Shown here: positions 2,263 to 25,857 of the stretch, in pieces | Layout of the letters: each line of letters opens with the position of its first letter | How positions within the stretch are numbered: position 1 is the first letter of the stretch | IMG/VR virus record: IMGVR_UViG_3300028361_000020 | Location: 64,001-101,322 of that record | Source: a virus | Length of the DNA: 37,322 nucleotides | Strand: one strand, 5' to 3' | The notes under the pieces: model-generated | The model's database searches: none | Told to the model about the DNA's origin: nothing | What the model saw: only the letters and a program-made list of their open reading frames with translations | Position numbers and translations under genes: made by a program

Positions 2263-2729
2263 TCTGGTACTACCTTATGTCCTTTTAACTCCAGCATGGT
2301 CACATGCTTGGGCTTGAGCCATTTTGTTTCAGAAATACTCATACAAGGAATAACAATGTCATTGTTATTGAAGAAATATGCTGCTAGTTGCCAACTCAAA
2401 TATGTAGACTTACCCGATAATCGCCCAGCAGCGTGTATACCAAGTTGGCCGTAGCTGTTGTTGGGCCGCAGTGCCCGTCCAATAGATTGTACACCATAGA
2501 GACTTGTACTATAGAGACTTGAACTAGTCGGTTTGGTCACCAATGTGCCACCTTGGATTGGCACGTTTGGAAACACATAATCAACAATCTTTGACTTTTC
2601 CGGAACAGGAAACACTAGGCATTTTGCATAGCCCAGTCTCGGCATGCGATATGCATCACACGCATCTTTTCGTTGTTTGAGTCGATGGTCAAGGCTTACT
2701 TCAAAACGTAGGGCGCGGCGCGTTTTCAT
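2259..2729 (-). CDS. hypothetical protein, 156 aa
   Basis: A good ribosome site (AAGGAG) precedes the ATG at 2729. The protein starts MKTRRALRFEVSLDHRLKQR and has a central GRLSGKSTYLSWQL that superficially resembles a P-loop (GxxSGKST). It lacks a clear Walker A GxxxxGK[ST] register and the rest of an ATPase fold, so I do not call it one. It overlaps the neighbouring genes at both ends. Function unknown. Confidence 0.6.
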   Translation of the reverse strand: MKTRRALRFEVSLDHRLKQRKDACDAYRMPRLGYAKCLVFPVPEKSKIVDYVFPNVPIQGGTLVTKPTSSSLYSTSLYGVQSIGRALRPNNSYGQLGIHAAGRLSGKSTYLSWQLAAYFFNNNDIVIPCMSISETKWLKPKHVTMLELKGHKVVPE

Positions 2730-3054
2730 CTTCTTCTCCTTTTAACACTCTCCATGTATACGCCTTCTCAGCAGCTAGGGCCCAGGCGGCCCGTCTGCCA
2801 TCTACATCTCTTACCCAATCCATCATAATTTGCTCATTTCCAAAACTGCCGTTTGGAAAGTTTTGAAATACTGAAAATGCAATATTAGCAAGTATTTCTC
2901 TGTTTTGATGATCTGCGTTGTTGGAAGCTCTAAACAAGTCGTTGCACAGCACCGCCTCTAGAAATCCTCCGGGCATGCATCCAAACATCAAATAGTCAGA
3001 GGCGCTTTGTGTTGTCCGCGATTGCCCTACTTCGAAGTCAATATACATAGTCAT
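2701..3054 (-). CDS. conserved phage protein, 117 aa
   Basis: The longer frame to 3204 is only a shadow of the upstream gene, so I start at ATG 3054, preceded by AAAGAG and overlapping the upstream stop. The segment YLMFGCMPGGFLEAVLCND followed by a tryptophan-containing tail resembles a family of small phage proteins with a GGFLxAxLxND motif that I have seen in many tailed phages without a known function. No signal peptide. Confidence 0.65.
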   Translation of the reverse strand: MTMYIDFEVGQSRTTQSASDYLMFGCMPGGFLEAVLCNDLFRASNNADHQNREILANIAFSVFQNFPNGSFGNEQIMMDWVRDVDGRRAAWALAAEKAYTWRVLKGEEDENAPRPTF

Positions 3055-5881: not shown

Positions 5882-6568
5882 TTATTTGACTTCAGGAAAT
5901 AGGCAATCTTGTACAAAAGCTGTAACATCATCCTCACTGAGTCCGAGACTTGTCATTGTTTTTGGAGTGTGGGGGTTTTGCTTTTGATAGTGTGCATATT
6001 TGTTTTGTGCAGATTTGATCTCGTCGTGGTCTCCGGCAAAGTTATAATCACCAATTAGGTCCAAATATGAAAAAATACTATCTGTACTTAATTGAACTAT
6101 TTGCTCAAGCTCTTCTGTCTTCTGTACGTTTCCTGCTGCAATCATATGTTCGCTGAAAATAGCTTCTGCCCACTTAGGAAGTGCTCTTTTCTTTTTCCAT
6201 TCTAGTGCTGCTGCTTCATCTCCAAACGCTTCTATCATGTCGTGTGCTGGATCAATGGTTGCAGAATAGTCATGAAAGAATCCTGTAATTTTATTCTTAC
6301 CTGCAATAACGTCTAGGCCAAAGATAGGCCCATTGTTGTGCAGGTGAGGAAAAATACAACAATGCATCATCCATAACCCTTTGGTTTCTCTTGCATCGAC
6401 TACATCTATGTGGGCACGGCGATATTTTTCTCCAGTCCACACTTGATTGATCCACCCTGGTTGATTGAACTTGGCCATGCCTGGTTCAAATATTTCTGTA
6501 CCGGATTGCTCAAAGCTTCTAGTCAGTTCTTGTTGTATTCCTAATAGTGCAGTCCATACCTTACTCAT
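5882..6568 (-). CDS. pcyX: ferredoxin-dependent bilin reductase, PcyA/PcyX-like
   Basis: This family reduces biliverdin to phycobilins with electrons from ferredoxin. The signature is clear around residues 68-95: MMHCCIFPHLH, then PIFGLDVIAG. These hold the histidine and aspartate that bind and protonate the bilin in PcyA (His88 and Asp105 there). At 228 residues it has the family's normal size. It overlaps the haem oxygenase gene by 8 nt, so the two would supply haem to biliverdin to phycobilin. From memory, a reductase named PcyX, paired with a haem oxygenase, was described from non-cyanobacterial marine phage metagenomes and makes phycoerythrobilin. This context fits PcyX better than cyanophage PebS or PcyA, but the product specificity cannot be read from sequence. 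Confidence 0.85.
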   Translation of the reverse strand: MSKVWTALLGIQQELTRSFEQSGTEIFEPGMAKFNQPGWINQVWTGEKYRRAHIDVVDARETKGLWMMHCCIFPHLHNNGPIFGLDVIAGKNKITGFFHDYSATIDPAHDMIEAFGDEAAALEWKKKRALPKWAEAIFSEHMIAAGNVQKTEELEQIVQLSTDSIFSYLDLIGDYNFAGDHDEIKSAQNKYAHYQKQNPHTPKTMTSLGLSEDDVTAFVQDCLFPEVK

Positions 6569-7091
6569 TGCTTAGTTCCATGAATAGTTGTATAGCAAAC
6601 TGAAAACACCGATTTGCTTCGTCTGCCATATCTTCAGACAACCTTGCGCGTACAGTTGTCTTTAGTTCTTCTACATTGTCGAACTTGTACATCTTACCAC
6701 TGCCTGGATTTCGCTTGGAGATTATCTGGCCTCCATACATGTCGCCAAAGTGGCGCACATAGATGTGGGCAAGAATGTCAATAGGGTTTGTTAGTGCTTC
6801 GACGTAGTTAATGTATTCGGCTACAACGTTACATACTACTGGCGCGCTGAGTTTATATAACTTATTAAGCTCTTCGATGTCATCATGAATACTGCTGCTT
6901 CTACAAATCTCTTCGATGCCGGTTAGTACCCCGCGTTTTGTGGCATAATATTCCAATGCAACGTAGATGTGATATTGGTTAAACAGGTATTTGTGATATT
7001 CATCAGGGGTCATGCCCGCAAGTAATTTGCGAGCATGTGCTGTACGTTCAGCATCTTGGTGGTATTTCCACGTAAGATCTTTTAGGCTCAT
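6561..7091 (-). CDS. ho1: haem oxygenase
   Basis: Opens haem to biliverdin IX-alpha with release of CO and iron, using ferredoxin electrons. The proximal haem ligand is probably the histidine in WKYHQDAERT (residue 11). The distal helix shows the family motif GDMYGGQIISKR (about residues 117-128). The 176-residue length is that of a compact bacterial or phage HmuO/HO1. Its stop overlaps the bilin reductase start, and its ATG overlaps the last codon of clpS, so all three are probably translated together. Besides pigment synthesis it could supply iron during infection. Confidence in the family is high. Confidence 0.92.
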   Translation of the reverse strand: MSLKDLTWKYHQDAERTAHARKLLAGMTPDEYHKYLFNQYHIYVALEYYATKRGVLTGIEEICRSSSIHDDIEELNKLYKLSAPVVCNVVAEYINYVEALTNPIDILAHIYVRHFGDMYGGQIISKRNPGSGKMYKFDNVEELKTTVRARLSEDMADEANRCFQFAIQLFMELSNE

Positions 7092-7390
7092 TAGTTTTCC
7101 TCTATCTTAACTCTTAGAGGAAAGCCGTTGTCTCGACACATGGATGTTGACTCGGCTGCTTTTTGTTCTGCAATTTCGTGACTGAATACACCAACAACTC
7201 CGCTGCCTTCTTCATGAATTTGCATGGTAAGATTGTGAGCTGTTTCTGGCGTGTGCTTGAACAATTCTACCATTAACATTACAACAAAATCCATCGGTGT
7301 TGAGTCGTCATTTAAGAAGACAACTTTGTATTGACTGGGTTCTTTAAACTTGGCTTTTACTTTTTCTTCAATTTTAATTTCTGTGCTCAT
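7091..7390 (-). CDS. clpS: ClpS-like adaptor for ClpAP protease
   Basis: ClpS hands proteins with destabilising N-terminal residues to ClpA and inhibits other ClpAP substrates. The 99-residue protein has the family layout: a flexible N-terminal extension, YKVVFLNDDSTPMDFVV (NDD and the binding pocket, about residues 22-38), the helix with TMQIHEEGSGVVG (binding histidine), and the C-terminal HEIAEQKA with an RDNGFPLRV ending. It lies between bS21 and haem oxygenase with 9 nt and 1 nt spacing. A phage copy could redirect host proteolysis, for example away from tmRNA-tagged proteins. That link with the tmRNA in this window is inference. Confidence 0.93.
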   Translation of the reverse strand: MSTEIKIEEKVKAKFKEPSQYKVVFLNDDSTPMDFVVMLMVELFKHTPETAHNLTMQIHEEGSGVVGVFSHEIAEQKAAESTSMCRDNGFPLRVKIEEN

Positions 7391-7399
7391 ATTACCCTC

Positions 7400-7627
7400 T
7401 TAGATATCTGATTTGAGTTGACTTTTTTTAAGTCTGCTGATGGCAGCCTTCTTTGCTTTGCGGTTTTTAGTACCGTTGCTTTCAAAACTCTCGCGCCGCC
7501 GGATCTCTTGGAATAATCCGTCATCAGCTAGCTTCTTCTTTAACTTGCGAAGTGCCTTTGGTACATCGTTTCCTCGAACTTCAACTGACATACCTTGATG
7601 TCTGTCGGACTTTTGGTGTTTACTCAT
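7400..7627 (-). CDS. rpsU: ribosomal protein bS21
   Basis: bS21 sits near the anti-Shine-Dalgarno end of 16S rRNA and helps mRNA recruitment. The protein (75 aa) has the family core: VEVRGNDVPKALRKLKKKLA, then GLFQEIRRRESFES, then a lysine-rich tail. A start at 7627 overlaps the 127-aa gene upstream. As I recall, phage copies of bS21 are known in marine myoviruses of alphaproteobacteria, where they may be exchanged into host ribosomes. Together with IF-1 it points to control of initiation. Confidence 0.92.
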   Translation of the reverse strand: MSKHQKSDRHQGMSVEVRGNDVPKALRKLKKKLADDGLFQEIRRRESFESNGTKNRKAKKAAISRLKKSQLKSDI

Positions 7628-9589: not shown

Positions 9590-9618
9590 TTTATACAACG
9601 TTTTTGTACTGCTGTCAA
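9590..9618 (-). promoter_or_regulatory. sigma70-type promoter
   Basis: TTGACA (9613-9618), 17-bp spacer, TATAAA (9590-9595). Near-perfect, reading into the 83-aa gene. Confidence 0.85.
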
Positions 9619-9620
9619 GA

Positions 9621-9649
9621 AAAAAGAGACAGGTTTCCCTGTCTCTTTT
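9621..9649 (-). terminator. rho-independent terminator after the porin gene
   Basis: A 10-bp stem (AAGAGACAGG/CCTGTCTCTT) followed by TTTTTTCTT on the minus strand. It lies 24 nt after the porin stop and abuts the next promoter. The plus side also ends in TTTT, so it could work both ways. Confidence 0.85.
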
Positions 9650-9672
9650 AGATGTTATAGTTGTTTTAACTA

Positions 9673-10488
9673 TTAGAAGTTAAAGCTTACACCTGCTGCA
9701 ATGTCCGAATCTGTGGAGTTGATGTTGTAAGCAACTTCGCTCCACAATTCAATAGTATTGAACATCATGCTTGCGCCTGCGCCTACATAATCCACCAAGT
9801 CGGTGTCAGATGATCCACCTGCAAACCCAGCAATATCAACGGTTGCCATGGACCATCCAATCATGGCTTCGTATCCAACCGCGTCTGTTGTGCTTGAATA
9901 AGTTGCAACTGCGCCTGTGTTCAGTTGGTTGAACGAGCCGTTAACTTCGGCGGCAATTGCAAAGTCGTTGCTTACGTTTTGATAGTCGAGTACAACAGCA
10001 ACGTTTTGTGCAAGCATTACAGCTGGTGTAAAGTATGCTGCAACCTGGATGTTGGTCCAATTGTCAGTCACATTGTCATATCCAACATATGCTGCGCCCG
10101 ATGATGCACTAGCAATCAACGAATATTCTCCACTAGTTGGATTCGCAAGCGCGTCTCCGCCGAGTTCGCGCATAAGTGAACCGGTGAACAAGTCTTTCTG
10201 CTTACCAGCAGTGGCAGCAACAGCACCAAAATCAACACCAATATACCATTTGGCTAGTTCAACTTCTTCCGAATCTGGAAAGTCTGTAAACAACAACTCG
10301 CCGCCTACTAGCATGTCAACTGTTGGTGTAATACCGAAGCTAAAGTCAGCAGTTGCGTCCATTGCAAATACTGTGTCTGCGTTTCCGGATTTTGTAGCAA
10401 ATGTGTCAAGTGTGGCGCTTGTTCCTTGAGCAGATGCCGATGTTCCGATGGCCATAGTGGCAATTGTAGTTAAGAGTAGTGTACGCAT
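9673..10488 (-). CDS. outer-membrane beta-barrel protein (porin-like)
   Basis: The real start is ATG 10488 (AAGGA upstream); the longer frame includes the leader hairpin. MRTLLLTTIATMAIGTSASA is a classic signal peptide with an AxA cleavage site, so the mature protein begins near QGTSATL. The rest alternates polar and hydrophobic residues in beta-strand fashion and ends in SFNF, the C-terminal phenylalanine that the BAM machinery recognises. At 271 residues it is the size of a small alphaproteobacterial porin. It is a single-gene unit with its own promoter, 5' stem-loop and terminator. A phage porin could change uptake or block adsorption of competing phages (compare the lambdoid Lc porin); the role is inferred. 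Confidence 0.85.
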   Translation of the reverse strand: MRTLLLTTIATMAIGTSASAQGTSATLDTFATKSGNADTVFAMDATADFSFGITPTVDMLVGGELLFTDFPDSEEVELAKWYIGVDFGAVAATAGKQKDLFTGSLMRELGGDALANPTSGEYSLIASASSGAAYVGYDNVTDNWTNIQVAAYFTPAVMLAQNVAVVLDYQNVSNDFAIAAEVNGSFNQLNTGAVATYSSTTDAVGYEAMIGWSMATVDIAGFAGGSSDTDLVDYVGAGASMMFNTIELWSEVAYNINSTDSDIAAGVSFNF

Positions 10489-10520
10489 ATTGAATTCCTT
10501 TTGGTTATGCATTGTAACGT

Positions 10521-10545
10521 AGGAGCAATACTGATTATTGCTCCT
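10521..10545 (-). promoter_or_regulatory. 5' stem-loop of the porin mRNA
   Basis: AGGAGCAATA pairs perfectly with TATTGCTCCT around a 5-nt loop, starting about 5 nt after the predicted transcription start. A stem at the extreme 5' end protects mRNAs such as ompA from decay. The stem also holds an AGGAG sequence, but the real ribosome site lies further downstream. Confidence 0.6.
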
Positions 10546-10556
10546 TAACAATACTA

Positions 10557-10585
10557 GTTATACAGCAAAAAGCGCACCCAGTCAA
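10557..10585 (-). promoter_or_regulatory. sigma70-type promoter of the porin gene
   Basis: TTGACT (10580-10585), 17-bp spacer, TATAAC (10557-10562). The -35 lies inside the loop and stem of the hairpin at 10569-10601. Confidence 0.8.
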
Positions 10586-10601
10586 GTACTGGATACGCTT
10601 T
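10569..10601 (-). terminator. terminator-like hairpin embedded in the porin promoter
   Basis: AAAGCG/CGCTTT and CCAGT/ACTGG stems separated by a 3x3 internal loop, followed by TTTTT on the minus strand. It ends transcripts of the 58-aa gene upstream and at the same time carries the porin -35 box. Confidence 0.6.
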
Positions 10602-10639
10602 GCTTAAATAATGTCAATGTTGTTGTAAATTTACAACAA

Positions 10640-10816
10640 CTACTTCTTTGCTGCTTTTTCGTCTTTGGTAAGTTTTTGATTCCAGCTGTTGTTGCTAATG
10701 CCTAATTCAGAGGCCATTGGCTTGGTTTTGCCTTTGGTAACTTTGCCTCCTCCTTTTAAAAACGCATCAATCAAACTTTGTTCTGTGTTTGGCTTAGGTG
10801 GGTTATTTAAAGACAT
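10640..10816 (-). CDS. small protein of the LIDAF-GG family, 58 aa
   Basis: Missed by simple ORF listing. MSLNNPPKPNTEQSLIDAFL is followed by KGGGKVTKGK and a lysine-rich tail (KDEKAAKK). The EQSLIDAFLKGGGKV segment matches SQELIDAFFKKGGEV of the gene at 14149-14313, so the two are paralogues. AGGGA precedes the ATG. A palindrome (TTGTTGTAAATTTACAACAA, about 10619-10638) directly follows the stop. The family looks like a short DNA- or RNA-binding helix, but this is not proven. Confidence 0.65.
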   Translation of the reverse strand: MSLNNPPKPNTEQSLIDAFLKGGGKVTKGKTKPMASELGISNNSWNQKLTKDEKAAKK

Positions 10817-10972
10817 TGCTTATCCCTGGGTTAAAAATTATATAACAGTTTCTGAGTGGTGCGTTTTGTATCCCACTATTTGCAATCTACTAGTACTAAA
10901 AGTTTAAGAAGTACATCATTATTTGCCCAGCGGCCCAGACTATGTCTCGAGGGCGTTTTACAGTCTGTTATT

Positions 10973-11009
10973 AAAAGCGTACAAGGTAAGAAATACCTAT
11001 CTTGTACGC
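10973..11009 (-). terminator. rho-independent terminator of the tmRNA gene
   Basis: GCGTACAAG/CTTGTACGC (9 bp) with an inner AGGTA/TACCT pairing, followed by TTTT on the minus strand. It lies about 100 nt after the tag stop codon, where the permuted tmRNA gene should end. Confidence 0.85.
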
Positions 11010-11390
11010 GAGCAACTTTTCTATTACTAGGTAAGTTGTCAACCCTAGTAGCCCAATTTAGGCTGCAAGTGAGGAGATTCTGTTGCTACGCTCTCCCCGG
11101 GCGCCAGTGAATTAAGCCGCTAGGGCCATTTCCACAGTGTTTGCATTATCGGTTGCATTTAGTAGTTTGATCGCATTAACCGAGCTTAAATCCGGGTATC
11201 CTAATAATTGTTTTTCCTGCACGTCGATCCTATTTATCGCCCGTAACGTTCATCATTTAGTTGTTTACAAGCACTACCTTGAAGATGTCAATCACCCGTC
11301 TAAACTTTTGGTGGACGATCTGGGTACCGCCCCCAGGTCCGTTTCATTTATTACAATCATCAATAATGCAACAACCGATTACTCTCTGCT
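11010..11390 (-). ncRNA. ssrA: circularly permuted two-piece tmRNA
   Basis: tmRNA rescues stalled ribosomes and tags the nascent peptide. On the minus strand the acceptor piece comes first. Its T-arm CTGGG/CCCAG with a 7-nt loop is at 11320-11336, then AUCGUCC (11313-11319), A, and CCA (11309-11311). After a 66-nt intervening segment the coding piece starts at 11242 with GGGCGAU, which pairs over all 7 bp with AUCGUCC to make the acceptor stem. GGAUCGACG (11222-11230) is the usual 5' motif. The tag frame GCA...TAA (11156-11112) encodes ATDNANTVEMALAA; an LAA-type end is the degradation signal. The order acceptor-then-coding is the permuted form known from alphaproteobacteria and some other groups. 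The gene has its own sigma70 promoter and terminator. The exact resume codon and processing sites are inferred. Confidence 0.92.
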
Positions 11391-11401
11391 GCATGTATAT
11401 A

Positions 11402-11430
11402 TTTATACACTATAACGTGCGAAGTGTCAA
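11402..11430 (-). promoter_or_regulatory. sigma70-type promoter of the tmRNA gene
   Basis: TTGACA (11425-11430), 17-bp spacer, TATAAA (11402-11407). The -10 region also reads TATAAATA, the T4 late motif, so the RNA might be made both early and late. Confidence 0.85.
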
Positions 11431-11438
11431 GTTTTATT

Positions 11439-11638
11439 TTAGACCCAGGGACGACCTGGTTGCAGTCCGCCAGCATTTTCATTGTCGACGACCTCGTTGC
11501 CTGCATATTTTGTAGGCAACAGTTCAATGTTGGATGTATCTCGAGGGTTGCCTGCTGCTGTACGGTCGTTTGCTGCAAGAGCAAGCTTTGCTTCTTGCTT
11601 TGCTTGTTTGTTAGTTGTGATATACCATTTGCGCTCAT
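11439..11638 (-). pseudogene. small conserved phage gene with an apparent 1-nt deletion
   Basis: From ATG 11638 the frame MSANGISQLTNKQ is soon out of step with the better coding frame, which reads QEAKLALAANDRTAAGNP, then LLPTKYAGNEVVDNENAG and GLQPGRPWV before its stop at 11439. One extra A in the repetitive AACAAACAAGCAAAGC stretch restores a single frame: 200 nt becomes 201, that is 66 residues. I recall a widespread marine-phage family with this pattern (QARQEAKLALA, then LPTxYxGNxVVDN, then GRPW). Real frameshift or homopolymer error cannot be told apart here. Confidence 0.65.
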
Positions 11639-11688
11639 ACTAATATTTATACAATGTTTGTAAATTAGTATTAAGCTCTGATTTCATT

Positions 11689-11907
11689 TTAATCATTGCC
11701 GTTAATTTCGTCAACTGTACGGTGCATAAATATTTCGTAACGTTTTTTAATATCGGCATTAACAACTTCCACACAATGGATGCGGCCTTTTATCGTTAGT
11801 AATAAAAGTTCTTGGTCTGTTAGCCATATTACAAGGCCTGACACGTTTGTCGTTCCGTGGCAGCTATGCTTTTTGTAATGCGTGGCATAACATTTCTTTT
11901 CACTCAT
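11689..11907 (-). CDS. small tandem paralogue with VIWLT motif, 72 aa
   Basis: SGLVIWLTDQELLLLTIKG and VVNADIKKRYEIFMH parallel the next gene upstream (IVWLTDNELLMHQL, VAIKKVNEVYMHQT). The start overlaps that gene's stop as ATGA. Function unknown, but tandem duplication is visible. Confidence 0.6.
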   Translation of the reverse strand: MSEKKCYATHYKKHSCHGTTNVSGLVIWLTDQELLLLTIKGRIHCVEVVNADIKKRYEIFMHRTVDEINGND

Positions 11908-12113
11908 CCGTCTACCGCCGGGCCTACAGTTTGATGCATGTAGACTTCGTTTACTTTTTTAATAGCAACGTTGGTTATTTCTACGAACAAATATTCGCCA
12001 TCTAATTGGTGCATCAACAGTTCGTTGTCGGTCAGCCAAACGATTTTTCCGCCAGCCTTAAAGCCCAGCCGGAAATCTGTCCACTGGGTGTAGCAACGCT
12101 TTTCACTGTTCAT
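11904..12113 (-). CDS. small tandem paralogue with VWLTDNEL motif, 69 aa
   Basis: Starts at ATG 12113 (MNSEKRCYTQWTDFRLGFK); the longer frame is a shadow of the gene upstream. It shares the core (I/V)(I/V)WLTDxELL and a following IKKxxEhxMH with its downstream neighbour. It overlaps both neighbours. No known domain. Confidence 0.6.
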   Translation of the reverse strand: MNSEKRCYTQWTDFRLGFKAGGKIVWLTDNELLMHQLDGEYLFVEITNVAIKKVNEVYMHQTVGPAVDG

Positions 12114-12360
12114 GAGGTTCAAGAATGTTGTTGTATGTTTGATCTGAAAGTTTTTCTCTAAAATATTGTAGGGCGTCGGATTCGAGTATTTTATCCGCAT
12201 GCTCATTTGGGTAACGTATACTAAACAATAAATATTGCTTGCTGGATAACCAGATTACACGGCTATATGGTCCAGTAAACAAATCAATTGTAGTTACAAA
12301 GCAGTGTATACAATTCTTAACTTTGGGAATGGTTGGTATTTGCGACTGCCATTTTTTCAT
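12103..12360 (-). CDS. small protein related to the VIWL paralogues, 85 aa
   Basis: SRVIWLSSKQYLLFSIRYP matches the core of the two downstream genes more weakly, so it is probably the third, most diverged member. MKKWQSQIPTIPKVKNCIHC begins the protein. It overlaps the next gene by 11 nt. Function unknown. Confidence 0.55.
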   Translation of the reverse strand: MKKWQSQIPTIPKVKNCIHCFVTTIDLFTGPYSRVIWLSSKQYLLFSIRYPNEHADKILESDALQYFREKLSDQTYNNILEPHEQ

Positions 12361-17711: not shown

Positions 17712-18263
17712 TCAAAGCTTGCAGGATTCGCAATCTGAGTCGTCATCTGCATCAACTTGCTCGAGTTCTGGCAAGTCTTCTTCACCTAGCATCTTGTTAA
17801 CGTCAAGTTCTCCTTGACCATCGTTTGTTTGGAAATAATAAAGCTGCTTGCCGCCATATTTGTAGAACATCACCATGTGTTGCAGCATTACACTCATTGG
17901 AATCTTTTCATCTTCGTAAAACTCAGGATTGTAGCTGGTGTTAACACTGATGCCTTGGTCTATGTACTTTTGTAGCACAGACATAATTTTTAGATATCCT
18001 TCGGGCGACTTTTGTGTCCAGAGCAGATCGTACTTGTTTTTAAGGCGCTTGTATTCCGGTACTACTTGCTTTAGTACTCCGTGCTTGCTTTGCTTTACAC
18101 TAATAAATGCACGCGGCGGCTCGATGCCATTTGTTGCATTTGCAATTTGCGCACTAGTGTTATGACTAATGCATCCATTTGACAAGGTATAAGTTTCGTT
18201 GTCAGTTGAAACATCCCAAGTGTGTTCTGTTCCTGCGTCTCTTGTAATACGTTTAATTTTCAT
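17712..18263 (-). CDS. nrdA: NrdA piece 4: split-intein C-half plus reductase C-terminus
   Basis: ATG 18263 is used (GAGG 9 nt upstream; overlaps the endonuclease remnant's stop), 183 aa. Residues 1-35 are an intein C-terminal half: TWDVSTDNETYTLSNGCISH then the terminal Asn. The extein resumes with Thr36 in TSAQIANATNGIEPPR, matching E. coli TSSQISNATNGIEPPR. It holds the radical-transfer tyrosines (KQLYYFQT, equivalent to Tyr730-731) and the C-terminal shuttle cysteines CESCKL. The N-half of this intein is at the end of piece 3. Trans-splicing would join the two and restore the reductase C-terminal third. Confidence 0.93.
   Translation of the reverse strand: MKIKRITRDAGTEHTWDVSTDNETYTLSNGCISHNTSAQIANATNGIEPPRAFISVKQSKHGVLKQVVPEYKRLKNKYDLLWTQKSPEGYLKIMSVLQKYIDQGISVNTSYNPEFYEDEKIPMSVMLQHMVMFYKYGGKQLYYFQTNDGQGELDVNKMLGEEDLPELEQVDADDDSDCESCKL
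18159..18263 (-). mobile_element. split intein 3, C-terminal half (35 aa)
   Basis: Blocks F and G are clear: HTWDVSTDNETYTLSNG and CISHN. The last His-Asn and the following Thr (+1) are the residues needed for Asn cyclisation and transesterification. Confidence 0.88.
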
Positions 18264-18412
18264 TTTAATAATTCCTCTTTTGTAATTGAACATTTTCCTT
18301 GTTTTGACACGTTATCTTCCCAGGGAATAAATTCTAAATTTTGCAAGCTTCCTAATAGCGCAGGATTAATTCCTTCAATAAATCCTCGAGATATTGAAAA
18401 TTTATGATCTAG
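18260..18412 (-). pseudogene. homing-endonuclease C-terminal remnant between split-intein halves
   Basis: After the TGA that ends piece 3 the same frame stays open for 50 codons. LDHKFSISRGFIEGINPALL continues as GSLQNLEFIPWEDNVSKQGK and CSITKEELLK. The pattern DHxxSIxxGF...IxP...G...NLxxIPWxxNxSK...SIT matches, from memory, the C-terminal part of phage HNH/Vsr-like homing endonucleases, including those found between split-intein genes. There is no start codon and the catalytic N-terminal part is absent. Its stop overlaps the ATG of piece 4. It is probably what is left of the element that split the gene. Confidence 0.65.
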
Positions 18413-19366
18413 TCATTTATCATTAACGCTAACAATATCGTCATCTTCTAATAAATCTTTAACTTCAATCCATTCTTTTATGTTATTTCGTAATACAAGA
18501 AGTTTGTGATTATTAGTAAATTTATATACTGATCCGTCTTCTAATTCAATTTCTGTAACAGATTGAGGGCCATTATAATAACATTCATATGCTATACTAT
18601 CTGACAATTCAACTGGTTTAAGGAATGGAAATCTCTGACCTATCATGAATTTTTCGTGAACAGTGTTAATATCAATTTTTCCGTAATCTTGAATAACTTC
18701 GGCGAGCGTTACAACTGTTCCATCTTTTAGCCTCATTTCATTTGCCAAGCTTTGACATTCGGCGGGCATAAGGGCCATTAGTGTAGAGTTTCTTATGCCC
18801 GTGTCTTTAAGCTGCGTTCTCAGTCCTTGCCAGTCCATACGTTCAACATGTGGAATTAGTTGATCCAAATCTTTCTTGTATGTCTGGTTAGGGGTAATAC
18901 CGTGTCCGTACTTAGTTTCCATGTTTCCGGTAGGCGCGCCAAATTCTGTTGCTAGGTCTGCGCTGGCTTTGATGAGATAGAAACTCCAGGCTTCTGCCCA
19001 TTCGTCAATTAATGCAAGTCCGTCGCTGTCAATGTCTTGGTAATTGAGATTGTTTTTAGCAAGCCAATATGCAAAGTTGATAATACCAACTCCAAGTGGT
19101 CGACGCTTGTCGGTTGATAGTTGTGCAGCTAGAATTGGATAATGTTGATAGCTTAGTAGTGCGTCCAGTCCACGTACTGCAAGGCGACAAACTCTTTCAA
19201 AATCAGCAGGAGTCTTAATATTGCCCCAATTAATTGCTGAGAGCGTACACAAGCTGATAGCAGCACCGTCATAGTCTTCTACCATTTCGTCTACATATAT
19301 GTATTCTTCATCTTCTCGAATATTGTTTTCGTTTTCTACTACTTCATATAACCAATTATTTTCCAT
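18413..19366 (-). CDS. nrdA: NrdA piece 3: middle reductase segment plus split-intein N-half
   Basis: 317 aa, AGGA 7 nt before ATG 19366. Residues 1-34 are a strongly acidic extension (about 13 D/E against one R) absent from E. coli NrdA. Residues 35-203 align with E. coli NrdA from ISLCTLSAIN (the Cys equivalent to Cys462) through GIINFAYWLA to NSTLMALMPAE. From Cys204 the chain is an intein N-half with an unusual block A (CQSLANEMRLKDGTVV) and a normal block B (YKFTNNHKLL). The next codons after its TGA are an endonuclease remnant. Its start overlaps the end of piece 2 by 11 nt in another frame; there is no intein at that break. Confidence 0.9.
   Translation of the reverse strand: MENNWLYEVVENENNIREDEEYIYVDEMVEDYDGAAISLCTLSAINWGNIKTPADFERVCRLAVRGLDALLSYQHYPILAAQLSTDKRRPLGVGIINFAYWLAKNNLNYQDIDSDGLALIDEWAEAWSFYLIKASADLATEFGAPTGNMETKYGHGITPNQTYKKDLDQLIPHVERMDWQGLRTQLKDTGIRNSTLMALMPAECQSLANEMRLKDGTVVTLAEVIQDYGKIDINTVHEKFMIGQRFPFLKPVELSDSIAYECYYNGPQSVTEIELEDGSVYKFTNNHKLLVLRNNIKEWIEVKDLLEDDDIVSVNDK
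18416..18757 (-). mobile_element. split intein 3, N-terminal half (114 aa)
   Basis: Cys204 of piece 3 is the +1 splice nucleophile, right after MPAE of the extein. Block B carries TNNH. Block A lacks the common CLxxDTxV form, so it is an atypical sequence. Confidence 0.8.
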
Positions 19367-19655
19367 TGTTATTCCTTGCTACCTTATGTACTTTTTTGCC
19401 ATTAAATTTCTCTTTGTCTAATCGTAAAATGCCATCTACTGACTTTTTATATTCTAAATATTCATTATATTTGTTTTTGGGAATTCTTATTTTACGTCGG
19501 TGAGCGCCGTCATTGAGATCTTTCAGCGGCTTGGTGGGTAAAGTAATTTCGGCACAATTGTGTACTAGTATTCCGTTTGCAAAGAAATTTTCATTGCCCA
19601 ACACTGTGATATCGTACACTGCTTCTCTTTTATTTTGTCTTGTAATTTTTAGCAT
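19356..19655 (-). CDS. nrdA: NrdA piece 2: split-intein C-half plus catalytic-loop fragment
   Basis: 99 aa. Residues 1-33 are an intein C-half (YDITVLGNENFFANG, ILVHN). The extein begins at Cys34 with CAEITLPTKPLKDLNDG, aligning with E. coli CLEIALPTKPLNDVND. Cys34 thus corresponds to the thiyl-radical Cys439 and Glu36 to Glu441. After NDG the chain does not continue into the reductase but into a 49-residue basic tail (16 K/R, 5 D/E) and stops. A ribosome site (AAGGA) precedes the ATG, 64 nt after piece 1. Without splicing to piece 1 this fragment alone cannot be active. Confidence 0.9.
   Translation of the reverse strand: MLKITRQNKREAVYDITVLGNENFFANGILVHNCAEITLPTKPLKDLNDGAHRRKIRIPKNKYNEYLEYKKSVDGILRLDKEKFNGKKVHKVARNNNGK
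19557..19655 (-). mobile_element. split intein 2, C-terminal half (33 aa)
   Basis: MLKITRQNKREAVYDITVLG, then NENFFANGILVHN, followed by Cys+1. Closely resembles, from memory, the C-half of the NrdA-2 split intein reported from marine metagenomes. Confidence 0.9.
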
Positions 19656-19719
19656 TTATTTTTTTTCCTTGAGTATATTGGAGATTTTTTGTTTATATTC
19701 GATACGGAGATTAATTTAG

Positions 19720-21783
19720 TTACGATATTAAAAGTCTGTCAGTTTCCGTTAATTCTTGCGCTTCTACATACCCTCGGTTCAATGTATAAATTTTATGCTC
19801 AGGTGTGCATTCTATAGTCTTTCCGGAATCTTCGTCAAAGATACTAATAACTTCTGCATCCGGGTTGGTCTTTGCAAATGCTTCAACCTTTTTATACTCT
19901 GTTTTATTATCAAGTATATTGTAAGATTTAACTAACAGATCTTCGTCCTGAACCATTAACGTTCCGATTTCGTCGAGATTAATAATTAATTTTTCATTAT
20001 TGAATATTACTTCAATCTTAGTGTCGCCTGTTAGACATAAGTTACTCTGGCGGATAGGAGCAAACTCCGGAATAAAACTTCCATGGTCGTTTGCATTGTC
20101 AACATTCTGCAGATAGATTCTACCTGTGGACTTGCGCTCTTCCATAAACTTACTGAATAGTTCGCTTGCTTTAACAGTTTTCTTGCGTAGTTTTGTAGTG
20201 CGTTCTGCTTTTTCATATAGTTCGCGGAACTTGTCTTGGTCTGCAAAAAATGCTTCATACAACCCGGGTACGTCGCTGGGTGAGAATAGTGTTATGTTGC
20301 CGCCTGTGATTAATCTTTCGTACATCAGCTTGTTGAACTGTACTCCGTAGTCCATGTGACGGATACGGTTTTCTTCAGTTCCTTTGTTGTTTTTCAACAC
20401 CAGCAATTCTTCTGCTTCTAGATGCCATATTGGATAATAGATAGTAGCGGCGCCGCCGCGTACACCACCTTGACTGTTGTGAGTTAACACCATTGAGTCA
20501 GACATCAACGAACTTGCAAAAAACGTATTGGTGTCTTCCACTGTAATGTCAACGTATCCTGTTGGATTTTGTTGACCGACTGTAATCGAATATAGATATA
20601 CAGTGCCATTTTCTGAAATAATATTGTTGTATTCTGTAAGTTCCTGAGGATACTTTTGTGTTACGACATTGTTGTCTAGAATCATAATTGGATGATTTAT
20701 ACTACAATTTATCACTGTTCCGTTTGTAAATTCCAGCCTAACCTGCTGATCTTCTGTTACCAGCGTATCCCATTTGTTAATAACTTTTCGGTATACAATC
20801 TTGCCGTCTTCGTAGGATTTAATTTTCATTCCAGTAGTAAGATCTGCAATGCGGATTTTTTTTGTTTCTAGCCCGTCTTCGTTAATTATTTCAACAATTG
20901 TATCCGGAGTTAGACAACAACTTTTAACTGCTGACTGGAAATGCTTGTAGAATGGAATGATACCAGTGTGATATGCATCGCCTTTGCGTATTGGCGAGTT
21001 AATGGCGCGGATGTTCCCTGCGCCAATGCCGATGCCTGCTTTTTGACTCACATACTTGACAATCGACGCAGAAGTAGCGCTGATGCTGTCAAGGCTGTCA
21101 TCTGTTTCAATAAGCACACAACTACTGAATTGACGTTGTGGTGTGCGCACACCTGCCATAACTGGCGTAGGAAGACTGATGTCGTGGAGGCTGATTGCGT
21201 CGTAGTATTCTTTAATCCACGTTAATCGAGTTTCTTTTGGATACGACGAGAACAAGGTAGCAGCAATCAATGCATAACACATTTGTGGGGTTTCAAAGAT
21301 TTCTCCAGTGACTCTGTTCTGCACCAAGTACTTGCCTCTAAGCTGCTCCATTGCGACATAAGTTAACTGTTCGTCACGGTCGTGTTTGATAAAACTGTCT
21401 ATTTTATCCCATTCGTCGTTGGTGTAAGTATCTTTTAATTCTGGATCATAGTAGCCGCGGGCGGTGTTCAAGTCCACCAATTTCTTAATATGAAAAGGAT
21501 CAAACCCGCCGTATACTTCTTTTCGCAACCCGTAGTTGATGAGTCTTCCTCCAACATATTGATAGTTTGGCGTTTCTTCTGTGATCAGATCTGCTGCTGC
21601 TTTGATCAATGTTTCTTGTATTTCTTTGCTTTTGATGCCATTGAAAAACTCCAGCTTGCTTTTAATTTCAACTTCGCTTGGACTAACTCCTGTTATGCCT
21701 TCGCATGCGTAAAATGCAACTTTGTGCAACTTTTCGATGTCCAGTGGCTCCAACGAACCACTCCTCTTAGTGACTTGAATCAT
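19720..21783 (-). CDS. nrdA: NrdA piece 1: reductase N-terminal half with mini-intein and split-intein N-half
   Basis: ATG 21783 with AAGGA 6 nt upstream, 687 aa. Residues 1-289 match E. coli NrdA: KRSGSLEPLDIEKLHKVAFY (ATP cone), then TPQRQFSSCVLIE with Cys222, the equivalent of substrate-site Cys225. Residues 290-436 are a contiguous mini-intein after AVKSC. Residues 437-582 resume with SQGGVRGGAA and run to APIRQSNL. Residues 583-687 are an intein N-half starting CLTGDTKIEV and ending at the stop. A late-promoter motif (21827-21834) precedes the gene. The spliced product would lack the catalytic Cys/Glu pair until joined to piece 2. Confidence 0.95.
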   Translation of the reverse strand: MIQVTKRSGSLEPLDIEKLHKVAFYACEGITGVSPSEVEIKSKLEFFNGIKSKEIQETLIKAAADLITEETPNYQYVGGRLINYGLRKEVYGGFDPFHIKKLVDLNTARGYYDPELKDTYTNDEWDKIDSFIKHDRDEQLTYVAMEQLRGKYLVQNRVTGEIFETPQMCYALIAATLFSSYPKETRLTWIKEYYDAISLHDISLPTPVMAGVRTPQRQFSSCVLIETDDSLDSISATSASIVKYVSQKAGIGIGAGNIRAINSPIRKGDAYHTGIIPFYKHFQSAVKSCCLTPDTIVEIINEDGLETKKIRIADLTTGMKIKSYEDGKIVYRKVINKWDTLVTEDQQVRLEFTNGTVINCSINHPIMILDNNVVTQKYPQELTEYNNIISENGTVYLYSITVGQQNPTGYVDITVEDTNTFFASSLMSDSMVLTHNSQGGVRGGAATIYYPIWHLEAEELLVLKNNKGTEENRIRHMDYGVQFNKLMYERLITGGNITLFSPSDVPGLYEAFFADQDKFRELYEKAERTTKLRKKTVKASELFSKFMEERKSTGRIYLQNVDNANDHGSFIPEFAPIRQSNLCLTGDTKIEVIFNNEKLIINLDEIGTLMVQDEDLLVKSYNILDNKTEYKKVEAFAKTNPDAEVISIFDEDSGKTIECTPEHKIYTLNRGYVEAQELTETDRLLIS
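19723..20037 (-). mobile_element. split intein 2, N-terminal half (105 aa)
   Basis: Starts CLTGDTKIEV (block A) and carries KTIECTPEHKIYTLNRGY (block B with TPEH). It follows QSNL of the extein, so the break is exactly before the catalytic cysteine. Resembles, from memory, the NrdA-2 N-half. Confidence 0.92.
20476..20916 (-). mobile_element. contiguous mini-intein 1 (147 aa)
   Basis: Cys290 opens block A (CLTPDTIVEI). Block B has NCSINHPIMIL, and block F/G has GYVDITVEDTNTFFASS and MVLTHN before Ser+1. At 147 residues there is no endonuclease domain. It interrupts AVKSC/SQGGVRGG. Confidence 0.94.
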
Positions 21784-21826
21784 TCTTTTTCCTTTAAATG
21801 TGTACGGTAACTGTAAAACAGCTAGG

Positions 21827-21834
21827 TATTTATT
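21827..21834 (-). promoter_or_regulatory. T4-type late promoter upstream of nrdA
   Basis: AATAAATA on the minus strand, 44 nt before the nrdA piece 1 ATG, inside the end of the 141-aa gene. Confidence 0.5.
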
Positions 21835-22255
21835 GTAGTTTTTGTGGAGTAAATTGTTTTTCAACTGTGATATGCACAGGTATTTGTTGTCTGTCTACTG
21901 CACAATCTGCATGGTAACCAATTACCATGTCGTCAACATACAGTAGATATTTTATCTCCGACTTTGCTCTATCTGCACAGATATATATCTCAAAAACTGA
22001 TTCCGAAAAGCGATTAGTTAACTGCAAAGTGTAGCATATTCCCAGAATAATGGAAAACTCGCAGTATACATTTTCGTAAACCAGTTCCCATGCGTTTGGC
22101 CATAACTTGTCGGCATACGGATCACAAGATATGCCGACCAGCGGTGCAGTATTGTAGAAGTCAACGGCGTCCTGAATAGGATACGCCGATGTCTCCAGCG
22201 TACTTCTAAAAGCTGACCATTCACGAAGACGGTCAACGTAATCTTTTTCAAACAT
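21830..22255 (-). CDS. hypothetical protein downstream of the tailspike, 141 aa
   Basis: MFEKDYVDRLREWSAFRSTL, then TAPLVGISCDPYADKLWPNA and a beta-rich C-terminal half. Its ATG overlaps the tailspike stop by one base, so it may be a tail chaperone or accessory protein, by position only. No motif recognised. Confidence 0.65.
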   Translation of the reverse strand: MFEKDYVDRLREWSAFRSTLETSAYPIQDAVDFYNTAPLVGISCDPYADKLWPNAWELVYENVYCEFSIILGICYTLQLTNRFSESVFEIYICADRAKSEIKYLLYVDDMVIGYHADCAVDRQQIPVHITVEKQFTPQKLQ

Positions 22256-24004: not shown

Positions 24005-24223
24005 TTACGTGTTCTCTTCATAATATTGCTGAACCCTCTTCCACCATTCTTGCGACCAATCATCAAACTCATGCGGCCATATATCAAACTGCTGATACTC
24101 CAAGGCGCGCGAGCACATAAAGACATGACCTTCGCGAATATCAGTGTTGTGAACTTCGTTATGTCCAATTGCATAAGCTGTAAGATTTACTTTCTTTTTG
24201 GCATTAATCTTCCTCGAACCCAT
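24005..24223 (-). pseudogene. diverged duplicate of the nuclease C-terminus
   Basis: 72 aa. From about residue 13 it reads LTAYAIGHNEVHNTDIREGH and ALEYQQFDIWPHEFDDW, almost the same as the last 60 residues of the nuclease upstream (GIAHNEVHGTDIREGH, ALEYQQFDVWPDEWEYW). At the DNA level the two copies differ at many positions, so it is not a recent duplication. The first dozen residues lie within the endonuclease gene. It probably is the original 3' end of the nuclease gene (or that of a relative), separated by the homing endonuclease. It could still be translated, but lacks the catalytic part. Confidence 0.8.
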
Positions 24224-25116
24224 CCTTTACTATTCCAATCCTGCAATTCGTCTATTTTTATTTTTTTGTTTTCTTGTCCATTATTAATCCATGCTGTATT
24301 TCTACGAGATTCTTTCATTTGTATGGATTTTTCAACTCCGTAAATTTCTTCGTAAGATTTTCCTTTTGTATCAAGAGTTAACCCTTTATTCCATGAAGAT
24401 TTGCCCTTCATTATGTTTGACATTTTTGCTAATCTCAAATCTGTTTCTTTTGTTTTGCCTGCATTCCATGGAGTTTTTCCTATCATATCAGGGCGAGGCT
24501 TTCCTTTTTTAGACTCTGCGTACTTTGCAACTTTTTCACAAGTTTCTTTTGTTTTGTCTTTATTCCATGCGGTCTTACCTTTTTTCTTTTCATTAGAATT
24601 CTTTCTAATTTCTTTTCCTTTTTCAGAATCATTAAATATTTTTATACCTTTTGAAATTGCTTCACAGCGTTCTTTGCTATAACTTCCTAATTTTTGTCCT
24701 TTTAAATGCGAAGGCTTACCTTTATGTGCCTCGCTTATTTTTATTTTTGTTTCCTCAGTTAGAATGCGTCCGCCTCGGCCGCCCGCGTCGATATTAGTTA
24801 ACCTTCCAGTCTTAATACATCTTCGTCCGTAAAACTCAATTAATTTTCTTTCTTTCTCACATGCTTCATTGTATGTTAAATTTTCATATGGAAATCGATA
24901 TTCTATATCGATTTCTTTTTCAACTAACTGTAATATTACATGTATCTTATACATGTTTAATTTTTTAATATTTTTTATTTGATTGTTTTTGTATTTTATC
25001 GCTTCTCGAATATGATCTTTATATCTAGGCTGTGTGGTTTTCCTGTTGTGTTTCCCGTATCCAACATAGATAGGCTCATTATCAATAGGATTCCATAATT
25101 CGTAAATGTAATACAT
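24187..25116 (-). CDS. GIY-YIG homing endonuclease
   Basis: Start at ATG 25116 (AAGGA upstream), 309 aa; the longer frame would run into the late promoter. MYYIYELWNPIDNEPIYVGY is the GIY-YIG N-terminus. The catalytic arginine and glutamate probably lie in YKDHIREAIKYK and YNEACEKERKLIEFYGRRC. The C-terminal half repeats NUMOD-type DNA-binding units: KISEAHKGKPSHLKGQ, KTAWNKDKTKET, KTPWNAGKTKET and KSSWNKGLTLDTKG. It is a free-standing mobile gene between a nuclease gene and a second copy of its 3' end, with its own late promoter. Its codon usage looks more A-rich than its neighbours. Confidence 0.93.
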   Translation of the reverse strand: MYYIYELWNPIDNEPIYVGYGKHNRKTTQPRYKDHIREAIKYKNNQIKNIKKLNMYKIHVILQLVEKEIDIEYRFPYENLTYNEACEKERKLIEFYGRRCIKTGRLTNIDAGGRGGRILTEETKIKISEAHKGKPSHLKGQKLGSYSKERCEAISKGIKIFNDSEKGKEIRKNSNEKKKGKTAWNKDKTKETCEKVAKYAESKKGKPRPDMIGKTPWNAGKTKETDLRLAKMSNIMKGKSSWNKGLTLDTKGKSYEEIYGVEKSIQMKESRRNTAWINNGQENKKIKIDELQDWNSKGWVRGRLMPKRK

Positions 25117-25154
25117 TTTTTTCCTTTTGCATACGCTGTTGCTCATAACAAAAG

Positions 25155-25162
25155 TATTTATC
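25155..25162 (-). promoter_or_regulatory. T4-type late promoter of the homing endonuclease
   Basis: GATAAATA, 38 nt before the endonuclease ATG and just after the nuclease stop codon. Confidence 0.65.
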
Positions 25163-25164
25163 AA

Positions 25165-25857
25165 TTATGCACAATTCTTATAATAATCGTATACTCTGTC
25201 CCATGCTTTTTTTGACCAGTATTCCCATTCATCCGGCCATACATCAAACTGTTGATATTCGAGAGCACGCGAGCACATAAAGATATGGCCTTCACGAATA
25301 TCGGTACCATGGACTTCATTATGTGCAATACCATAAAGAACAATTTGTAATCGATAGTCTTCTACCCATTCGAGCTTCTTAGGCTTGTTGGTTTGTTTGA
25401 AGTCGATTATCGAAGGGTTGCCTTTGAATGTTCCTACTAGGTCAGTTGTACCTGCATAGACATCAGGAACATATAATGCAACTTCGCTGCCCCATATTTG
25501 ATCTACATGTACCATAGCTTCGTTACGTATAACACATGCCATTTTATGAGCTTGCTGTGCATACGGATTGCTTCCGGCACTTGGCCATTCACCGGTTTCC
25601 ACATAAGTCTCGAGATACTTGTGCATTCTGGTACCAACACCGGCTGCTTCGACGGTAATCTCTTGCGCCTTTTGATGGCCTACTCTCTTGCGCCATTCGT
25701 GCAAGTGTGTCTGATCCTTGGTTGCGCCAAGGATGGTAGTAACACTAGGAACAGGAATGTTACCGGCGCCACTGTAGCGCCGTTTGCCATCTACTTCGAC
25801 TCTTGAAAGTTTTCTATAATCGTACTTGGGTTTAATTAATGTCAACTGTATCTCCAT
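25165..25857 (-). CDS. PD-(D/E)XK exonuclease, MGME1/RecB-like
   Basis: 230 aa. AGVGTRMHKYLETYV (about residues 73-87) is the alpha-helical entry of the fold, with GTRMH as in MGME1/Cas4-type nucleases. GTTDLVGTFKGNPSIIDFKQ (about residues 136-155) gives the Asp and the D-x-K of the active site. The later LQIVLYGIAHNEV is the QxxxY-like helix. Marine T4-like phages usually carry such a nuclease, probably acting in DNA processing or host-DNA breakdown. Its last 60 residues are present again at 24005. Transcribed from a perfect sigma70 promoter 9 nt upstream. Confidence 0.88.
   Translation of the reverse strand: MEIQLTLIKPKYDYRKLSRVEVDGKRRYSGAGNIPVPSVTTILGATKDQTHLHEWRKRVGHQKAQEITVEAAGVGTRMHKYLETYVETGEWPSAGSNPYAQQAHKMACVIRNEAMVHVDQIWGSEVALYVPDVYAGTTDLVGTFKGNPSIIDFKQTNKPKKLEWVEDYRLQIVLYGIAHNEVHGTDIREGHIFMCSRALEYQQFDVWPDEWEYWSKKAWDRVYDYYKNCA

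Follow-up and report, generated by a model that had tools for sequence, protein, structure and literature searches.

Phage-encoded two-piece tmRNAs have been known since 2022, when Buchholz et al. described one in the OM43 phage Melnitz and named Mosig as another carrier (PMC9004378). The same work counted 53 two-piece structures in phage genomes, mostly marine or aquatic, and reported a glutamine riboswitch with the Melnitz-type tmRNA (PMC9004378). The tmRNA database holds 79 phage sequences (PMC11915505), and huge phages have been reported to carry tmRNA, SmpB and S21 (PMC7162821). Hence, the viral tmRNA gene that we describe here is a further case and not categorically new.

The gene lies in a stretch of 37,322 nucleotides (the window) that comprises bases 64001 to 101322 of a 101,322-base IMG/VR virus record. 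The record is viral, and the window proteins include phage-like NrdA and NrdB subunits of ribonucleotide reductase (RNR), a tail-spike-like protein and a virion protein. Identical stretches occur on other IMG/VR contigs, among them a contig of the same virus (G001) with 251,140 bases.

On its minus strand, at about 11405 to 11013, the window carries an alpha-type tmRNA gene that is complete and circularly permuted; from promoter to terminator it covers about 11430 to 10973. A sequence-only reading had proposed a permuted, phage-encoded tmRNA at this place, and each part that it named is present on this strand. Rfam model RF01849 (alpha_tmRNA) aligns over its full length (model positions 1 to 355) with 111.1 bits (cut-off 50, E = 1.1e-29), and RF04321 (tmRNA_permuted) reaches 93.6 bits (cut-off 47, E = 4.8e-17). 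The covariance-model check suggested with that reading thus returned about twice the curated cut-offs, and the two E-values exclude a chance match. ARAGORN calls the tmRNA as well, with the tag ATDNANTVEMALAA, and finds no further tRNA or tmRNA in the window. The gene and its signals consist of the following parts, in the direction of transcription.

11401 to 11430, minus strand: sigma-70-like promoter, TTGACA-N17-TATAAAT, recurring in relatives
11320 to 11336, minus strand: T-arm, CUGGG-GGCGGUA-CCCAG (RF01849 alignment)
11319 to 11313, minus strand: 3' strand of the acceptor stem, AUCGUCC (covariance models, relatives)
11312, minus strand: discriminator A
11311 to 11309, minus strand: encoded CCA, with the predicted mature 3' end at 11309
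11243 to 11308, minus strand: intervening segment (spacer) of 66 nt, expected to be excised
11236 to 11242, minus strand: 5' strand of the acceptor stem, GGGCGAU, with the predicted mature 5' end at 11242
11222 to 11235, minus strand: conserved AAAUAGGAUCGACG of the tRNA-like domain (RF01849 alignment)
11112 to 11156, minus strand: tag frame ATDNANTVEMALAA and UAA stop (ARAGORN, relatives)
11071 to 11104, minus strand: 3' pseudoknot A, with S1 GCGC/GCGU, S2 GGGGAGA/UCUCCUC and linker AGCAACAGAA
11013 to 11045, minus strand: 3' pseudoknot B, with S1 GGGU/ACCU, S2 CAACUU/AAGUUG and linker AGUAAUAGAA
10973 to 11009, minus strand: terminator-like hairpin GCGUACAAG...CUUGUACGC followed by UUUU (fold)

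The T-arm, the CCA within the gene and the tag followed by a stop were all found as claimed, AGGAUCGACG stands between the 5' acceptor strand and the tag, and the RNA ends predicted earlier at 11309 and 11242 were derived again from the sequence. The consensus promoter also held up, its -35 and -10 elements recurring with the same 17-nt spacing in three related phage sequences (L066, L245 and L041); a scanner with a stricter consensus misses it, owing to the A at position 6 of the -10 element. As a separate candidate, TATAAATA was considered as a T4-like late promoter and is not supported, since the minus strand of the window has 2 copies where 1.35 would be expected. The terminator claim needed revision: a terminator is present, but beyond 11010 (hairpin 11009 to 10977, then UUUU), and the element at about 11045 to 11013 is the second pseudoknot instead. 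The hairpin is absent from the list of a terminator scanner that requires five T. The window thus has two tandem pseudoknots 3' of the tag, compared with one in the nearest syntenic relative (contig G003, L075/L245), whose sole pseudoknot is the counterpart of pseudoknot B. Against 500 mononucleotide shuffles, the best pseudoknot score was reached by 13 and the second-best by none.

The acceptor stem is formed by two segments in permuted order, and all seven positions of GGGCGAU/AUCGUCC pair, including G3.U70. Among related phage contigs there are nine distinct acceptor stems, in which standard pairs occupy 63 of 63 cells and four of the seven pairs have changes on both sides; these stems were found by complementarity, which is itself a bias toward pairing, and three mis-assigned stems from the pattern search (L224, L239 and L246) were excluded from the count. 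The covariation score is 0.595; shuffling gives 0.107 on average, and sliding the partners gives no more than 0.097. L066 provides an independent check because there both stem halves are placed by the sequence around them. Its coding piece shares 88% identity with that of the window, yet its stem is GGGGAUG/CAUCUCC, with both bases exchanged in four of seven pairs, and these two halves are also the ones that the Rfam models align. The permuted pairing that the sequence-only reading expected in relatives is therefore kept through compensatory changes and, with both model scores above their cut-offs, the assignment as a permuted tmRNA stands. A G.U at the third acceptor pair is an identity element for alanine. 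G3.U70 is invariant in all nine distinct stems, and the window tmRNA combines it with the discriminator A and a CCA end.

The window tag has a stop and an ALAA-type end, and degron-like tag ends are kept in relatives, such as AANANNVEMALAA, ANTNASIESFALAA, ANNNYAPEMALAA and others. ARAGORN assigns unusually long tags of up to 28 residues to L244 and to several beta-type relatives (L223 to L232), for example AKANTFEYFQVPVTLATANDAEFAIAA; either the tags are truly this long or the resume codons are misplaced. The gene thus has its full anatomy, a covarying permuted acceptor stem, a conserved alanine pair and a conserved tag ending of the ALAA degron type, and it persists within a phage group. On this basis, we consider it very probable that it encodes a functional two-piece tmRNA of the alphaproteobacterial class.

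Between some phages the spacer is better conserved than the RNA pieces on either side. It is identical to that of the window at 65 of 66 positions in L066 and at 61 of 66 in L245, compared with 118/134 and 96/134 for the coding piece and 88/102 and 82/103 for the acceptor piece. Hence, spacers are 92 to 98% identical between phages whose coding pieces are 72 to 88% identical; in the bilin reductase gene, DNA identity between the window and G003 is 66.7%. Fisher p values for spacer versus coding piece (0.013 for L066 and 0.0005 for L245) are descriptive only, because the pairs were picked after the alignment had been seen. L241 and L243 show the same tendency with a different spacer sequence, and L234 and L243 show the reverse pattern (coding piece 94%, spacer 43%). 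Block-wise recombination of the gene could produce the same picture. The spacer together with the acceptor strand and T-arm folds no better than shuffled sequences (z = -0.24). A search of 257 billion bases from bacterial and archaeal genomes for a 19-mer taken from the spacer gave two matches, each in flavobacteria, and ARAGORN found no tmRNA in the stretches fetched around these two sites; since about 1.9 occurrences are expected by chance, the 19-mer names no host.

The tmRNA is followed on its strand by genes for bS21, ClpS, heme oxygenase, a ferredoxin-dependent bilin reductase and an alpha/beta hydrolase, and at a greater distance by one for a PP-loop protein resembling TilS. Two of these genes may bear on the function of the tmRNA.

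7400 to 7627, minus strand: ribosomal protein bS21 gene (PF01165, 49.7 bits)
7091 to 7390, minus strand: ClpS adaptor gene (PF02617, 95.5 bits), about 4 kb downstream of the tmRNA, with a family match over the whole domain

The genes for ClpS, heme oxygenase and bilin reductase adjoin or overlap one another (5882 to 7390, minus strand), and the closest match of the bilin reductase in the phage collection is from pelagiphage Mosig (45% identical). The TilS-like gene is at 1379 to 1972 on the minus strand; the same phage has CAU-anticodon tRNAs (L124:512-588), which could include a tRNA-Ile2 that needs lysidine. The initial 64 kb of the record contain 28 tRNAs according to ARAGORN. A GOLLD RNA (RF02032, 179.4 bits; L121:2500-2960, record bases 2500 to 2960, minus strand) with a tRNA-like match inside lies in a tRNA-rich stretch of the record and occurs on the 251-kb contig G001 too. 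Elsewhere in the window, the gene for the large RNR subunit is split over several ORFs (17712 to 21864, minus strand); the ORF at 19720 to 21864 contains an intein-like stretch (CLTPDTIVEI ... VLTHNS), and the RNR ORFs at 19356 to 19655 and 17712 to 18293 have similar HN junctions. A repeat-rich ORF resembling GIY-YIG endonucleases (24187 to 25164, within 24005 to 25857, minus strand) is flanked by a gene at 25165 to 25857 and by a second, partial copy of the end of that gene at 24005 to 24223.

Related bilin reductases led us to 79 viral loci, and 50 of the contigs that carry them were searched over their full length. Common to this phage group is a region with ClpS, heme oxygenase and bilin reductase; 44 of the 50 contigs have ClpS and 30 have a permuted tmRNA above cut-off. 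Where both occur, they share a strand, and their coordinates place them about 4 to 20 kb from each other; this co-occurrence holds for one phage group, sampled via bilin reductase. Two cultured phages with ClpS, PA5oct and Vibrio 2.275, gave no permuted tmRNA match. No tmRNA was found in G060 (245 kb) and some other long relatives, many of the other negative contigs being fragments, so the gene is common in the group but neither universal nor essential to it. Rfam assigns these tmRNAs to the alpha or beta class only, a few unscanned loci being given the class of a scanned contig that shares their tag or tRNA-like domain. The deepest split of the bilin reductase tree (support 100/100), a stand-in for the phage tree that includes several near-copies, cleanly separates 15 alpha-type from 15 beta-type contigs. 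This congruence suggests that tmRNA class tracks host group, and the host of the window phage is therefore probably an alphaproteobacterium.

What does the phage gain from its own tmRNA? We hypothesize that host tRNA-processing nucleases would cut the precursor into an acceptor and a coding piece that stay base-paired together, that host AlaRS would charge the product, and that, during infection, host SmpB would deliver it to ribosomes that are stuck on broken mRNAs. The viral records searched, including the 251-kb G001, encode no SmpB, which would make the tmRNA dependent on that of the host. Tagged proteins would then pass to host Clp proteases, and the phage would benefit in that free ribosomes stay available to it, which agrees with the bS21 gene and the large tRNA set that it carries itself. 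The likely role is thus ordinary trans-translation that keeps ribosomes free with the help of host AlaRS, SmpB and proteases. Like the sequence-only reading, we infer that the phage tmRNA would alter ribosome rescue and tag fate. In E. coli, ClpS inhibits ClpAP in degrading SsrA-tagged proteins; a phage encoding both tmRNA and ClpS could therefore steer the fate of the tag. The ClpS of this phage could redirect Clp protease between substrates with an SsrA tag and those without, and the question arises why a phage supplies both the tag and the Clp adaptor. A bolder proposal, that either the discarded spacer is a functional phage RNA or processing signal or that tmRNA and ClpS act as one module, attaching a degradation tag and also governing whether Clp protease acts on it, appears quite doubtful to us.

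A working tmRNA might mainly serve to counter host defences that cut mRNAs or tRNAs, together with the phage tRNA set. This would be a special case of the ribosome-supply role, in which ribosomes stalled on cut messages are cleared. tmRNA is known to clear ribosomes from cut mRNAs, and 28 tRNAs in 64 kb would suit such a purpose; however, sequence does not tell this role from general ribosome maintenance, and PADLOC matched no defence-related gene among nine neighbours of the tmRNA, so that counter-defence as the main benefit seems unlikely. Much less credible is a functionless remnant recently taken from a host, for example by imprecise excision. The flanks of the L066 tmRNA are unrelated to those of the window, and the gene thus seems to move as a unit, as such an origin would allow, but all parts are intact, the double compensatory changes in the stem and the conserved degron indicate selection, and the tmRNA class follows the bilin reductase tree of the phages. 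We give even less credence to a role as inhibitor or decoy, in which the RNA would titrate away SmpB or ribosomes in the manner of the tRNA-domain-only RNA of phage DS6A. RNAs with a tRNA-like domain have been reported to inhibit tmRNA (PMC4131195; PMC11915505), and the phage has no SmpB of its own; yet a decoy has no need of a tag frame, a stop codon, an ALAA end or pseudoknots, all of which the window tmRNA keeps. Ordinary trans-translation thus remains our preferred reading.

How does the window tmRNA relate to known tmRNAs? It shares with the Caulobacter-type alpha_tmRNA (RF01849) the permuted order, GGAUCGACG, the tag and a 3' pseudoknot, and differs in its viral location, its second tandem pseudoknot and its unusually conserved spacer. 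Mycobacteriophage DS6A likewise carries a tmRNA-related gene, which has little beyond the tRNA-like domain and lacks a tag (PMC4131195). With a tag frame whose end is conserved, the window gene does not belong to this class. Sinorhizobium jumbo phage Phosso, like the window, combines ClpS with a permuted alpha-class tmRNA (113.3 bits), although its match spans about 600 nt, unlike that of the window; AP-J-162 is reported to have a tmRNA, 66 tRNAs and Clp genes (PMC11242549). Both genomes are much larger than that of the window phage.

INPHARED contains no close DNA relative of the window tmRNA, only two chance-level matches. Among the nearest counterparts by type are the tmRNAs of Melnitz and Mosig, which, like that of the window, are phage-encoded, circularly permuted and of the alpha class; we found the Mosig tmRNA again at 111558 to 111772 (RF04321, 93.6 bits; RF01849, 67.6 bits). 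The Melnitz-type tmRNA is accompanied by a glutamine riboswitch, whereas a search for the glutamine (glnA) riboswitch in window positions 9600 to 12300 gave no match up to E = 1, and the phage groups differ. A whole group of large aquatic phages thus carries its own ribosome-rescue RNA, whose alpha or beta class separates with phage lineage and is a candidate host-group marker for uncultivated phages. In summary, the window tmRNA is a well-supported further example of the published phage two-piece tmRNAs.
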